A stretch of DNA of 64,000 bases from Blastococcus sp. PRF04-17 (lineage in GTDB: Bacteria; Actinomycetota; Actinomycetes; Mycobacteriales; Geodermatophilaceae). Position 1 is the first letter of the stretch. Each line of letters begins with the position of its first letter. The notes under the pieces are model-generated. The model had not been told where the DNA came from and did not search any database. It was given only the letters and a program-made list of their open reading frames with translations. The position numbers were made by a program, and so were the translations under genes. Of the stretch, positions 11,617 to 15,787 are shown one piece after another. The stretch covers positions 744,001-808,000 of the forward strand of contig NZ_CP095412.1 in the NCBI RefSeq assembly GCF_023016265.1. Reading direction: 5' to 3'.

Positions 11617-11632
11617 TCGAACGTGTGTTCGT
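11617..11632 (+). promoter_or_regulatory. LexA-type SOS box upstream of the radical SAM gene
   Basis: TCGAACGTGTGTTCGT matches the actinobacterial LexA operator TCGAAC-N4-GTTCGA at 11 of the 12 fixed positions; only the last base differs. It ends 9 nt before the ATG at 11642, where bound LexA would block transcription. This predicts DNA-damage induction of the downstream gene. Seen directly; the regulatory meaning is inferred. Confidence 0.7.
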
Positions 11633-11641
11633 ATCGAAGGC

Positions 11642-13816
11642 ATGCGGTGGGATGCGCAGCGGCTGGACGTCGACGATCCGACGACGTTGCCCGGCATGCC
11701 GAGCATCCGGGGCTTGCTGCGCAGCGTTCAGGTGCCGGAGTTCCCGGGCGTCACGTTCCACGAGGTGCGGGCGAAGAGCGCGCTGAACCACGTGCCCGGC
11801 GAATCGGCGATGCCATTCCCGTACACCATCAATCCGTACCGCGGATGCATCCATTCCTGCGTCTACTGCCTGTCCGGGGACACGCAGGTCCTGCTGGCGG
11901 ACGGCTCGCAGAGGAAGATCGCCGACCTTCGTGTCGGTGATCGCATCATCGGTACCGAACAGCGAGGGAGATATCGGCACTACGTCGAGACGGACGTCCT
12001 CGCACACTGGTCGACGGTGAAGGAGGCGTACCGAGTCACGCTCGGGGACGGAACTCGACTCGTCGCGAGCGGGGACCACCGTTTCCTGACCGGGCGCGGC
12101 TGGAAGCACGTCACCGGCGCGATGAGCGGGGCCGATCAGCGGCCGTACCTGACCACCAACGACAAGATGCTGGGCTTCGGCCGAACCGTCGCCTCGCTCG
12201 AGCCGTGCGACCAGTACCGCCGCGGTTACCTCACCGGCATGGTGCGCGGCGACGCCAATCTCAAGGTGTACCGATACCAGAGTGCCGGCCGCGCACATGG
12301 AGACGTCCACCGGTTCCGCCTGGCCCTGGCCGACGTGGAGGGTCTGCAGCGCACCCACGACTACCTGGCGCTGGAAGGCGTCGCGACCGACTGGTTCGAC
12401 TTCACGGCGGCGACGGACAAGCGCCGGGCCGTGACAGCGATCCGAACGTCATCCGCGGCGTCAGTTGCACGTATCGGCGAGCTGATCCAGTGGCCGGACG
12501 CACCGACCGAGGCCTGGCAGCGAGGGTTCCTCGCCGGCATCTTCGATGCCGAGGGCAGTCGAAGCCAAGGCGTCCTCCGGATTTCCAACACCGATGGCGA
12601 CATCCTCGGACAGGCGTCTGCTGCGCTGCAGCGCTTCGGATTCGATGTGGCGCGCGAAGACCTGCGGCTGGCGAACGGCCTGATCTCGCTGCGGGTGCGC
12701 GGCGGCCTGCGCGAGCACATGCGCTTCGTGCACCTGGTCGACCCGGCAATCCGTCGGAAGTGCCAGGTCGCCGGAACAGCGGTGAAGAGCGACGCCGATC
12801 TACGTGTGACCAGCATCGAGCCGCTCGGCATCGAGATGCCGATGTTCGACATCACCACTGGCACGGGCGACTTCATCGCCAACGGGGTGATCAGCCACAA
12901 CTGCTTCGCCCGGCGGACCCATGAATGGTTGGAGTTCGATTCCGGGCAGGACTTCGACACGCAGATCGTCGTCAAGACGAACCTCGTCGAGGTGCTGCGC
13001 CGTGAGCTGGCCCGTCCGTCCTGGACGCGGGAGCATGTGGCGCTCGGCACGAACACCGATCCGTATCAGCGGGCCGAGGGCCGCTACCGGTTGATGCCCG
13101 GTGTCATCCGGGCGCTGGCCGACTCCGGCACGCCGTTCTCGATCCTGACGAAAGGCACCTTGCTGCGGCGGGACATCCCGCTGCTGGCTTCGGTCTCGAC
13201 GGATGTGCCGGTCGGGCTGGGGATCTCCATGGCGATCTGGGACGACGCCCTGCACGAGGCGCTCGAGCCAGGGGTCCCCACACCCCGCGCGCGGCTGGAC
13301 GTCGTGAAGGCGGCGACGGACGCCGGCCTGCCATGCGGGGTCTTCCTCGCTCCGGTTCTGCCCGGCCTCACCGACGACGTCGAGTCGCTCGACGCGGCGC
13401 TGGCCGCGACCGCCACGGCGGGCGCCACGGGGGTCACGGTCATCCCGCTGCACCTGCGCCCCGGGGCGCGGGAGTGGTTCATGGCCTGGCTGCGCCGGGA
13501 ACACCCGAGCCTGGTCCCGCGGTACGAGCAGATGTACGCCCGCCGCGCATACGTGTCCGCCGAGTACCGCACCTGGCTCCAGCAGCGCGTGACGCCCTTG
13601 CTGCGACGGCACGGGCTCGACCGCCAGTCCGGCGGCACTGCCCGTGGCGCGTCCGACCCCGGCACGGCAGGCGTGCCCGGCGACGAGGAGGCTCGCTTCC
13701 CGGAGGGCAGCCTTCCCACCGGCGGCCTGCCGGGCGTCCGGCCCAAGGGCGAACTCCCGGCGCATGCCCAGGTCGAGCCGGCCGCCGCGTGCGCGGAGCA
13801 GCTCTCCTTGCTCTAG
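11642..13816 (+). CDS. Intein-containing Rv2578c-family radical SAM protein
   Basis: The host protein is a radical SAM enzyme of the Rv2578c / spore-photoproduct-lyase-related group. The 4Fe4S motif begins CIHSC at residues 69-73; its third cysteine is supplied only after protein splicing. A 345-residue intein (residues 76-420) sits between VY and CFARRTHEWLEF, so splicing rebuilds CIHSCVYCFAR. After it come GTNTDPYQRAEGRYRLMPGV and SILTKGTLLRRDI, typical of the group. Spliced length is ~379. The C-terminus, AEQLSLL, resembles a beta-clamp binding motif. The SOS-like box upstream points to DNA repair. The real substrate is unknown. Confidence 0.93.
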   Translation: MRWDAQRLDVDDPTTLPGMPSIRGLLRSVQVPEFPGVTFHEVRAKSALNHVPGESAMPFPYTINPYRGCIHSCVYCLSGDTQVLLADGSQRKIADLRVGDRIIGTEQRGRYRHYVETDVLAHWSTVKEAYRVTLGDGTRLVASGDHRFLTGRGWKHVTGAMSGADQRPYLTTNDKMLGFGRTVASLEPCDQYRRGYLTGMVRGDANLKVYRYQSAGRAHGDVHRFRLALADVEGLQRTHDYLALEGVATDWFDFTAATDKRRAVTAIRTSSAASVARIGELIQWPDAPTEAWQRGFLAGIFDAEGSRSQGVLRISNTDGDILGQASAALQRFGFDVAREDLRLANGLISLRVRGGLREHMRFVHLVDPAIRRKCQVAGTAVKSDADLRVTSIEPLGIEMPMFDITTGTGDFIANGVISHNCFARRTHEWLEFDSGQDFDTQIVVKTNLVEVLRRELARPSWTREHVALGTNTDPYQRAEGRYRLMPGVIRALADSGTPFSILTKGTLLRRDIPLLASVSTDVPVGLGISMAIWDDALHEALEPGVPTPRARLDVVKAATDAGLPCGVFLAPVLPGLTDDVESLDAALAATATAGATGVTVIPLHLRPGAREWFMAWLRREHPSLVPRYEQMYARRAYVSAEYRTWLQQRVTPLLRRHGLDRQSGGTARGASDPGTAGVPGDEEARFPEGSLPTGGLPGVRPKGELPAHAQVEPAAACAEQLSLL
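11867..12901 (+). other. Intein with LAGLIDADG homing endonuclease domain
   Basis: The element runs from Cys76 to Asn420 of the precursor. Block A is CLSGDTQVLLADGSQ (Cys1 nucleophile), block B VASGDHRFL (His, with Ser in place of the usual Thr three residues before), block F MFDITTGTGDFIANG, block G GVISHN with the canonical His-Asn end, and Cys as +1 residue. Two dodecapeptides, GYLTGMVRGDAN (about residue 195) and GFLAGIFDAEGS (about 295), keep an acidic catalytic residue each, so endonuclease activity is plausible. Base composition looks slightly less GC-rich than the host gene, consistent with transfer. Confidence 0.95.
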
Positions 13817-13826
13817 GTCGGGCGTG

Positions 13827-14681
13827 TCAACCGGCCAGGCGCGGCGTCCGTGAGATCCGTGCGTGGGCGCGGGCGGCGCGGACGACTCCGCGCGGGGACA
13901 CCGGTGGCGCTCCGTCGGCCAGCGCCAGCCGGCGGTAGGAGTCGTAGGAGAGCTCGCGATAGGCCAGCGCCAGCGCTTCGGCGTGCTCCCGCTGCGACGG
14001 CGGAGCCGTGGCCCGAAGGTGCTGCGCCGTGCGCCTGGCGTGCTTGGCGAACGTGGTCTGCAGCGCCTGGTTCGACAACCGGCCGCCGATCTGCGAGTCG
14101 AAGCCGGGCCCGCGGCGCAGCGCCGGCAGCACCCACGCGCTCGCGGCCAGGGCGGGGAAGCGCGAGCGCACCGCTTCCCAGGCGTGCCAGGCGGTCAGCG
14201 CACCCGGCACCGTCCAGTCGCCGTCGTCGGTGGAGATCAGGAGCCGGCGGGTAGTAGCCCGTACCTGGTCGCGACGCAGTGACCGGAACGACGCGATCGG
14301 CGCCGGCCAGCCCAGGGCGATGGCGCACCAGGCGACCGCCCGCAGGTGCTCCGGGTCCTCGCTGCGGATCTGCGTGAGGGCCCGGAGGTCCAGCTCCGGC
14401 GGGTCCGGCTCGGGCGTCGGCGCGGCCGGCAGCGCGATCCCGCCGTAGCGGGCGACCTTGCTGTACAGCGCCACCGTCGCCGGCTTCCAGCCCCGCGCCG
14501 CGGCCAACGGTTCGAGCCCCGTCTCGCCCAACTGCTCCGGCCCCAGGCCTAGCTCGAGTGCGGCCTCCCCGAGCCGGCGCCACTGGGCCTCGTAGCCCGG
14601 AGGGGCATCCAACCGCCGCCAGGCGCGGGCCGGCGGCGGGGCCGGCATGTCGGGCAGCGGCTGCTGCCATCCACCTCGCAT
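13827..14681 (-). CDS. Hypothetical protein, 284 residues
   Basis: I do not recognise this family. The protein is Ala/Arg/Leu-rich and mostly helical. Order of features: a proline-rich start, EQLGETGLEPLAAARGW (about residue 55), SFRSLRRDQVRATTRRLLIST in the middle, SNQALQTTFAKHARRTA (about 210) and AYRELSYDSYRRLALADGAP near the end. The middle and late segments weakly recall tyrosine-recombinase helices, but the HxxR and catalytic Tyr context is not convincing. A TAGTGT hexamer 6 nt before the ATG suggests leaderless expression. The promoter contains one arm of the 15-bp inverted repeat. Confidence 0.55.
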   Translation of the reverse strand: MRGGWQQPLPDMPAPPPARAWRRLDAPPGYEAQWRRLGEAALELGLGPEQLGETGLEPLAAARGWKPATVALYSKVARYGGIALPAAPTPEPDPPELDLRALTQIRSEDPEHLRAVAWCAIALGWPAPIASFRSLRRDQVRATTRRLLISTDDGDWTVPGALTAWHAWEAVRSRFPALAASAWVLPALRRGPGFDSQIGGRLSNQALQTTFAKHARRTAQHLRATAPPSQREHAEALALAYRELSYDSYRRLALADGAPPVSPRGVVRAARAHARISRTPRLAG

Positions 14682-14927: not shown

Positions 14928-15787
14928 ATGTACACGGCCAGCTGGCGGGACGTCGTCCGCCCGGACCTCTTCGGGAAGACCCCGGTCCGGCGCGACCGCC
15001 CCTACCGGTTCGTCATCCGCGCCTGCCTGGTGGTGTTCCGGCTCTTCGGCTTCCGCTTCGACGTCCGCGGTGCCGAGCACGTGCCGCCAGCGGCGGCGCG
15101 ATCATCTGCAGCAACCACGTCAGCTTCTTCGACTTCACCTTCCTGGGCCTGGGCGCCCTGCCGCAGCACCGCCTCGTCCGGTTCATGGCGAAGGCCGCCG
15201 TCTTCGACCACTGGTTCGCCGGCAGGTTCATGCGGGCGATGCAGCACATCCCCGTCGACCGCACGGCCGGCGCCGCCGCGTTCGACCTGGCCGTCCGCGC
15301 GCTCAAGGACGGCGAGGTCGTCGGCGTCTTCCCGGAGGCGACGATCAGCCGCAGCTTCACCGTCAAGGACCTCAAGGCCGGCGCCCCGCGCATGGCCGTC
15401 CAGGCCGGCGTCCCGATCATCCCGGCGGCCGTCTGGGGCGGGCAGCGCGTGGCGACCAAGGGACACAAGGTGCAGTGGCGCCGCGGCACCCCGGTGCTGG
15501 TGCTCCTCGGCGAGCCGATCGTCGCCGAGCCGGGGGAGAAGCCCCAGGCCCTGCTCCGGCGCACCCGCGCGGCGATGGAGGCGCTGCTGGACGAGGCCCA
15601 GCGGACCTACCCCGAGCAGCCGTCCGGGCCGGAGGACCGCTGGTGGCTCCCCGTCCACCTCGGCGGCACCGCGCCGACGCCCGAGGAGGCCGCTGTCGCC
15701 GACGCCGTCCGCGCCGCCGGCAAGGGGCCCAAGGTCGTCAAGAAGTCGCCGCTCGCCCGCCTCAAGGGCCTGGTCGCCCGCCGCTGA
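14928..15787 (+). CDS. 1-acyl-sn-glycerol-3-phosphate acyltransferase, PlsC-like (frameshifted)
   Basis: Acylates lysophosphatidate or a related lysolipid at the membrane. N-terminal part MYTASWRDVVRPDLFGKTP...FRFDVRGAEHVPP is in one frame; GAIICSNHVSFFDFTFLG onward is in the next. NHVSFFD is the HX4D catalytic motif, and GVFPEATIS and AGVPIIPAAVWGGQR are the later conserved blocks. The break lies at about 15086-15089 and is repaired by one added base (CCGCC-AGCGGCGGC). Everything else is intact, so this is probably a sequence error. C-terminus is Lys/Arg-rich. Convergent, overlapping by 26 nt with a small minus-strand gene. Confidence 0.88.

Follow-up and report, generated by a model that had tools for sequence, protein, structure and literature searches.

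Does an intein that sits on a cluster cysteine of a radical S-adenosylmethionine (SAM) enzyme serve its host as a switch, or is it a tenant of a suitable site? The question is raised by a gene of Blastococcus sp. PRF04-17 at positions 11642 to 13816 of the 64,000-nt stretch analyzed here (the window; positions 744,001 to 808,000 of NZ_CP095412.1), which encodes an Rv2578c-family radical SAM protein whose CxxxCxxC motif is interrupted directly ahead of the third cysteine. We regard it as probable that the element is a mobile class 1 homing intein and that it occupies the third [4Fe-4S] cysteine of an Rv2578c enzyme which resembles spore photoproduct lyase and whose gene has an SOS box.

The intein and its insertion site

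The features of the locus, in window coordinates, are as follows.

11642..13816, + strand: intein-containing Rv2578c-family radical SAM gene, 724 aa (open reading frame, family profiles)
11642..11866, + strand: N-extein, 75 aa, with Cys69 at 11846-11848 and Cys73 at 11858-11860 (sequence, homologue alignment)
11867..12901, + strand: class 1 intein, 345 aa, Cys1 to Asn345 (sequence, conserved columns; TIGR01445 starts at residue 76)
11867..12181, + strand: N-terminal splicing region, with Cys1 at 11867-11869 and the block B-like S68-G-D-H71, His71 at 12077-12079 (conserved columns, 83 inteins)
12182..12766, + strand: LAGLIDADG homing endonuclease region, approximate bounds (PF14528, motifs, I-DmoI-like fold in the model)
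12227-12259, + strand: LAGLIDADG motif 1, YLTGMVRGDAN (motif)
12527-12559, + strand: LAGLIDADG motif 2, FLAGIFDAEGS (motif)
12848..12901, + strand: C-terminal splicing block DITTGTGDFIANGVISHN, Asp328 to Asn345 (Asp328, His344, and Asn345 in 83/83)
12902..12904, + strand: +1 residue Cys421, third cluster cysteine once spliced (sequence, homologue alignment)
12902..13813, + strand: C-extein, the remaining radical SAM domain and a tail past the family model (PF04055 at residues 454-579; NF038135 ends at residue 660)
11617..11632, no strand assigned: LexA/SOS-type box TCGAACGTGTGTTCGT, one mismatch to TCGAACNNNNGTTCGA, with 9 nt between box and ATG

The product of the open reading frame matches NCBIfam model NF038136 over model positions 1 to 574 of 574 (863 bits; cutoff, 700). 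It also matches NF038135 (Rv2578c family; 515 bits; cutoff, 430), and PF04055 (Radical_SAM) is found in the C-extein (47.5 bits; cutoff, 29.5). The NCBIfam name of NF038136 is "intein-containing Rv2578c family radical SAM protein"; the intein-bearing Rv2578c class is already known and named by NCBI, as the first-pass annotation of this DNA had stated. Around the insert, the protein reads NPYRG-C69-IHS-C73-VY-[C1 LSGDT...GVISHN]-C421-FARRTHE, with intein residue Cys1 corresponding to residue 76 of the precursor and His-Asn closing the intein. Removal of positions 11867-12901 leaves C69-IHS-C73-VY-C-FARRTH, which is identical to the pattern of the intein-free homologues; with the spliced CxxxCxxC and a radical SAM domain and fold, the protein has the defining features of a radical SAM enzyme.

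The insertion site was compared across 178 homologous sequences (177 loci and the window). The site locator required C-x3-C-x2-C and was passed by 176 of the 178, the only failures being L047 and L171, which are cut by contig ends and were left unclassed. In the rest, 162 distinct combinations of host and intein were distinguished, of which 84 have an insert and 78 lack one; a single insert (L055) is out of frame. Cysteines at -7, -3, and +1 are present in 78/78 intein-free rows, and all 83 in-frame intein-bearing rows share the insertion place together with C-7, C-3, Y-1, and C+1. Given this agreement, and since no uncut sequence failed the locator, the insertion site is not a matter of chance. 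The first-pass annotation had placed the intein inside CxxxCxxC with the third cysteine as the +1 residue and had proposed aligning intein-free with intein-bearing homologues; the alignment bears out the placement (Cys421, with 83/83 relatives alike), as well as the boundaries 11867-12901 and the class 1 assignment. Inteins of this site vary in length (n = 83): 21 are mini-inteins of <200 aa, 10 have 200 to 334 aa, and 52 have at least 335 aa.

The Rv2578c host family was matched in at least 174 of 396 sampled genomes. Among the matches listed, those with an intein-sized gap within one span led to 32 fetched genomes besides that of the window, and all 32 carry an intein at the identical site; an intein was also seen in G374 and G428, both outside the fetched set, where the host match is split. 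The Rv2578c intein thus extends deep into the Actinomycetota.

The intein of the window is apparently splicing competent. Its class 1 residue set is complete (C1, block B H71, block F D328, H344-N345, and C+1), and C1, H71, D328, H344, and N345 are kept in 83/83 distinct in-frame Rv2578c inteins, so that the defect in splicing residues that the first-pass annotation had considered as a refutation is not seen. TIGR01445 (NCBIfam intein_Nterm) is passed with 27.4 bits against a cutoff of 24.5, and PF14528 (LAGLIDADG) matches the insert with 28.5 bits against 22.5; both LAGLIDADG motifs are intact and retain their acidic residues. The predicted structure of the precursor has a mean predicted local distance difference test (pLDDT) value of 87.5 and a predicted template modeling (pTM) score of 0.62, with well-folded Hint and endonuclease parts. 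Among solved structures, it matches endonuclease-bearing inteins and I-DmoI best, the I-DmoI-like fold having a TMt of about 0.7. The solved structure nearest to the model of L005, an intein-free homologue, is that of spore photoproduct lyase, a DNA repair radical SAM enzyme (template modeling [TM] score, 0.57); a DNA repair role would fit the Rv2578c-family enzyme. The loop following the third cysteine is of low confidence in both models. For a Streptomyces homologue, PMC12924846 terms the link to repair speculative.

In the precursor, Cys1 occupies the place of the missing ligand, as had been noted from the sequence. For the same reason, the unspliced protein still reads CxxxCxxC, and the earlier claim that the precursor cannot assemble its 4Fe4S cluster was too strong, being an interpretation and not a fact of the sequence. 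A cluster, a metal, or a disulfide at the precursor cysteines would each occupy the thiol that initiates splicing.

Descent, selection, and the promoter box

On the host tree (162 rows, i.e., 78 intein-free, 63 with an intein of at least 200 aa, and 21 with a mini-intein), intein presence requires 30 changes, 16 of them forced by well-supported branches, compared with a shuffled mean of 54. Geodermatophilaceae neighbors have no intein, a mini-intein, or a full intein at this site. Median dN/dS (nonsynonymous over synonymous substitution) values, taken from pairs with dS of <1.5 among 17 full-length Geodermatophilaceae copies, are 0.167 for the host, 0.165 for the N-splicing region, 0.251 for the endonuclease, and 0.215 for the C-splicing region; the endonuclease region is under purifying selection in full-length copies. 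Since the intein is patchy among close relatives and its endonuclease is maintained by selection, a homing element fits better than a switch kept by the host. The pattern of gain and loss resembles the homing cycle discussed in PMC1654191 (Gogarten and Hilario). Host and intein trees have 17 of 49 bipartitions in common, and 3 of 13 well-supported intein bipartitions conflict with the host tree. Rampant intein transfer is not claimed: synonymous distances of host and intein correlate with an r of only about 0.07 but are near saturation, and the tree comparison shows real partial congruence.

The gene is preceded by a palindromic candidate LexA/SOS box that is common to recA, dinB, and lexA and is conserved in most relatives; an SOS-type box ahead of an Rv2578c-family gene is new here. 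The reference TCGAACNNNNGTTCGA is the mycobacterial SOS box. In the window, the site ahead of the gene is the only one with fewer than two mismatches, nine others having two; the 10 sites with at most two mismatches compare with a shuffle mean of 2.1, and because the two-mismatch sites also exceed the shuffles, little can be concluded there from numbers of sites alone. A genome-wide scan for TCGAACNNNNGTTCG yielded 30 strand matches (21 sites, not all of them assigned to genes) versus 0 for the reversed control. One TCGAACNNNNGTTCG site starts 137 nt before recA, another lies 15 nt before the dinB reading frame, and two are located approximately 270 to 300 bp upstream of the lexA match.

A chance match of the promoter box was rejected on the evidence of the relatives: a box with at most one mismatch lies within 120 nt upstream at 109 of 159 distinct loci, compared with 8 of 5,905 background windows from the same loci. 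The usual position is -24 or -25. By class, such a box precedes 56/78 intein-free genes, 19/20 genes with mini-inteins, and 34/61 genes with longer inteins; before duplicate removal (92 rows with an intein and 82 without), more than three mismatches were found in 12 of the intein rows. The survey covered loci with upstream sequence, i.e., all but L143, L146, and L163, and in some distant loci the start codon was guessed by distance.

Related inteins in other radical SAM families

When the intein sequence alone was used to search the 396 genomes, the highest-scoring matches outside the Rv2578c family lay in a DUF5131 gene of G268 (171 bits) and in a QueE gene of G156 (82 bits); a second DUF5131 intein is located on a Streptomyces plasmid. 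All three inserts are at the third cysteine of a three-cysteine motif. The QueE intein (L248:998-1990, - strand) has Ser1, as judged by alignment, and ends in Arg-Asn; because of Ser1, its precursor would lack the third thiol and form a natural contrast to the Cys1 cases. A search for QueE in 296 genomes gave no further intein-sized gap among the matches listed. Two DUF5131 genes stand apart: that of G240 is long for another reason and has no intein, and G281 yielded a short DUF5131 match.

In viral contigs, the window intein alone as a query found no relative; these were found by intein alignments only. The first of two such scans yielded 76 loci and the second 13; 11 of these 13 had been found already, and L336 is the same place as L272. 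From the resulting 78 viral loci, the 58 with a match spanning the intein were examined and 20 were left out. All but one (57/58) are in frame with a terminal Asn, and 31 of these 57 have Cys-3, Cys1, and Cys+1, a proportion that describes the reach of the pattern among the kin of the seeds and does not carry over to inteins in general, because the scans were seeded with third-cysteine inteins. Cys-7 accompanies the pattern in 27 of the 31, and an aromatic residue at -1 does so in 28; L298, which was not counted, also carries the N-side motif. With the duplicates L268 and L336 removed, the 31 loci amount to 29 distinct cases, and Pfam assigned 25 of the 29 hosts at an E value of ≤0.001, namely, 20 to Radical_SAM, 4 to DUF5131, and 1 to DUF1848, with no host family in the remaining 4. 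Radical_SAM exceeds Pfam's own cutoff in 12 of the 20, the domain being split by the intein, and the tie of DUF5131 to radical SAM consists here of a TIGR04471 match below cutoff and the three-cysteine motif only. The labels QueE and SplB-like for viral hosts were given by eye from the motif. Of the 26 viral loci outside the pattern, 10 were scanned, and none of these 10 matched radical SAM; L296, L304, and L320 had no host match at all. Two further candidates were set aside: Virus Rctr197k, recorded as "radical SAM protein-like," has a translated host that is helicase-like by eye and lacks the motif, and a stand-alone Natrialbaceae open reading frame has a match that is not of the third-cysteine pattern.

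Taken together, related inteins at the third cluster cysteine comprise L212, L245, L248, and viral loci within L260-L337. As judged from these alignments, and as a notable addition to the known class, inteins recur at one particular iron-sulfur cysteine, which forms a niche for them across radical SAM enzymes; in the open-access literature, judged mostly from listings, no paper on third-cluster-cysteine inteins across radical SAM families was found. The motif may suit such inteins because radical SAM enzymes share the junction context Cys-x-aromatic|Cys. In trees, the inteins group largely by host family. The mixture-model tree was built from 68 rows (20 of 88 were left out, i.e., 17 of 29 Rv2578c rows, L178, L309, and L337) and joins the Rv2578c inteins with the SplB-like viral inteins and those of the radical SAM hosts L279 and L284 (100/99); the DUF5131/DUF1848 inteins form one group (97/98), and the SPASM/QueE inteins form another (94/94, with L320 inside). 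Loci outside the pattern also fall among the third-cysteine inteins, namely, L278 and L320 in the quick tree and L320 in the mixture-model tree. The quick tree of 88 rows suggested that the third-cysteine inteins form a single clade, which the mixture-model tree did not uphold and which we do not claim.

Several further observations were made along the way. A viral radical SAM-like protein (L293:829-4047) carries an intein at the third CxxxCxxC cysteine and a second one that, by eye, is apparently located at the first SPASM cysteine. Viral inorganic pyrophosphatases (PF18823) in L273, L282, and L294 carry related inteins at the common site D|C[FY]xGP. The DnaB of the Blastococcus genome (L178; G000:C1, around 3269068) apparently contains two further inteins, the first at the P-loop (by eye) and the second following DLRESG. 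Within the window, the 284-aa open reading frame that adjoins the radical SAM gene (13827-14681, - strand) has no Pfam match at an E value of 0.001, and an acyltransferase-like frame (by eye) starting at 14928 shows an apparent frame change at about 15085-15110, which would reflect an assembly error or a pseudogene.

Regulator or tenant

According to the reading that we consider probable, the intein would splice largely constitutively and thereby restore CxxxCxxC, and it would persist through homing by its intact-looking LAGLIDADG endonuclease. The shared junction Cys-x-aromatic|Cys would supply the +1 nucleophile as well as a DNA target that is both essential and conserved, SOS-timed transcription would yield the endonuclease while recombination is active, and sensitivity of splicing to a Cys73/Cys1 disulfide or to metal would be a plausible by-product of the site and not its reason. 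A number of results weigh against this reading. In DNA conservation, the insertion site ranks 97th of 921 24-bp windows: it is well conserved, but other stretches of the gene are more so, and target conservation by itself thus explains the insertion only partly and would not pick out this site. Host and intein distances correlate (Mantel r of 0.47 over 52 rows and of 0.65 within the family), which indicates substantial vertical descent. The three intein clusters have weak deep joins in the mixture-model tree, so one origin and several are indistinguishable and a common origin is not shown, and the viral scans, as noted above, were seeded with third-cysteine inteins. A considerable share of the longer-intein loci have a weak box or none; it is present with at most one mismatch in only 34/61. 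As for the intein itself, PF14890 (Pfam Intein_splicing) stays under its cutoff (26.7 versus 35.8 bits), and the block B threonine is replaced by Ser68 (Ser in 81/83 inteins), a conservative change that is not excluding. Block F of many inteins carries a His, the position of which is Asp335 in the window intein and Asp in 82/83.

A selfish intein without further meaning would splice fast and unconditionally, descend from one or a few old insertions at a site of no significance, and leave the box to the host enzyme only. This account, a possible one that we rate short of likely, shares its first half with the preferred reading, and the odds of the two overlap. The patchy presence, the mini-inteins, and the partial endonucleases fit the homing cycle of PMC1654191, and the box precedes intein-free genes (56/78) no less often than intein-bearing ones (53/81); the recurrence of the third cysteine in several host families, on the other hand, suggests that the site matters, at least for compatibility. 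Decay of the intein in a dead gene is very improbable and was rejected, since the window copy has an open frame and every conserved splicing residue, and the intein-bearing hosts are under purifying selection; the one case in its favor is L055 (Geodermatophilus sabuli), whose frame-broken intein region reflects either a sequencing error or decay.

A switch useful to the host would require that a disulfide, metal, or cluster involving Cys1 and Cys73 (and Cys69) restrains splicing in the precursor and that reducing or iron-replete conditions in the cell set the enzyme free; an oxygen-labile enzyme would be protected in this way, as has been proposed for Pyrococcus abyssi MoaA. Cys-3 and Cys1 occur in 83/83 Rv2578c inteins and in 31 viral loci, 21 of the 83 inteins have lost most of the endonuclease while keeping the key splicing residues, a stress-type promoter box precedes the gene, and the Cys-3/Cys1 disulfide of MoaA and the zinc block of DnaBi1 splicing, as described in the sources cited below, serve as precedents. 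We nevertheless consider such a switch unlikely. Intein-free genes keep Cys-7 and Cys-3 just as strictly (78/78), so that the needs of the enzyme explain Cys-3; any intein in a needed gene must retain its splicing residues; the intein is often absent from close relatives; the endonuclease is conserved in most full-length copies; and the Ser1 intein of the G156 QueE gene would have a precursor without the third thiol. The evolution of the site thus speaks against a switch retained through selection on the hosts, and it would be compatible with sensitive splicing.

More doubtful still is the broader proposal that the third cluster cysteine is a recurrent niche in which Cys1 completes a decoy three-cysteine site that gates splicing through a cluster, metal, or disulfide, under SOS control in the Actinomycetota. 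If it were true, it would mean a maturation checkpoint for oxygen-sensitive enzymes in SplB-like/Rv2578c, DUF5131/DUF1848, QueE, and SPASM-type hosts of bacteria, plasmids, and viruses, with the Cys1 decoy in nearly all cases seen and the Ser1 QueE intein as the natural ungated version. Whichever reading applies, the question of whether active-site inteins are regulators or mere tenants of conserved essential sites becomes testable through the same Cys-x-aromatic|Cys junction in different host families, the Ser1 variant, and mini and full versions in one genus; through the SOS box, a connection of DNA damage with endonuclease expression and homing would likewise become testable.

Among known systems, the NF038136 class is the closest: the match is whole length, every relative checked has the same intein site, and no structural difference was found, the window copy being an ordinary member. 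A further radical SAM intein family, NF045703 (tetraether lipid synthase Tes, intein containing), was weakly matched by the QueE intein. MoaA is likewise a radical SAM enzyme, and its intein in P. abyssi was reportedly first studied by Callahan et al. in 2011. According to the reviews PMC10663303 and PMC3922620, a Cys-3/Cys1 disulfide blocks splicing of that intein under oxidation. Its Cys-3 and the motif suggest that it also splits CxxxCxxC at the third cysteine. The window intein shares the radical SAM host and the combination of Cys-3 and Cys1 (Cys73 and Cys76), which is the sequence signature of the redox trap, although we do not claim membership; the two differ in host family and in domain of life. 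To our knowledge, the host of mycobacterial DnaBi1 is a P-loop helicase that has no cysteine ligands in its N-extein. Like the window intein, DnaBi1 is actinobacterial, and according to PMC7360933, its splicing is blocked by zinc bound to the catalytic cysteine nucleophile. The MoaA and DnaBi1 precedents indicate that the proposed kind of control exists elsewhere. The earlier suggestion of splicing controlled by thiols or metals therefore has published analogues, but no result here shows conditional splicing; a regulatory role is plausible by analogy and is not favored by the evolution of the site. The Mycobacterium tuberculosis SufB intein, which has Cys1 and Cys+1 (PMC8891592) and was reported as a sensor of oxidative and nitrosative stress (PMC5874633), resembles the window intein in residing in an iron-sulfur-related protein, but SufB is a scaffold and its intein does not occupy a radical SAM CxxxCxxC site.

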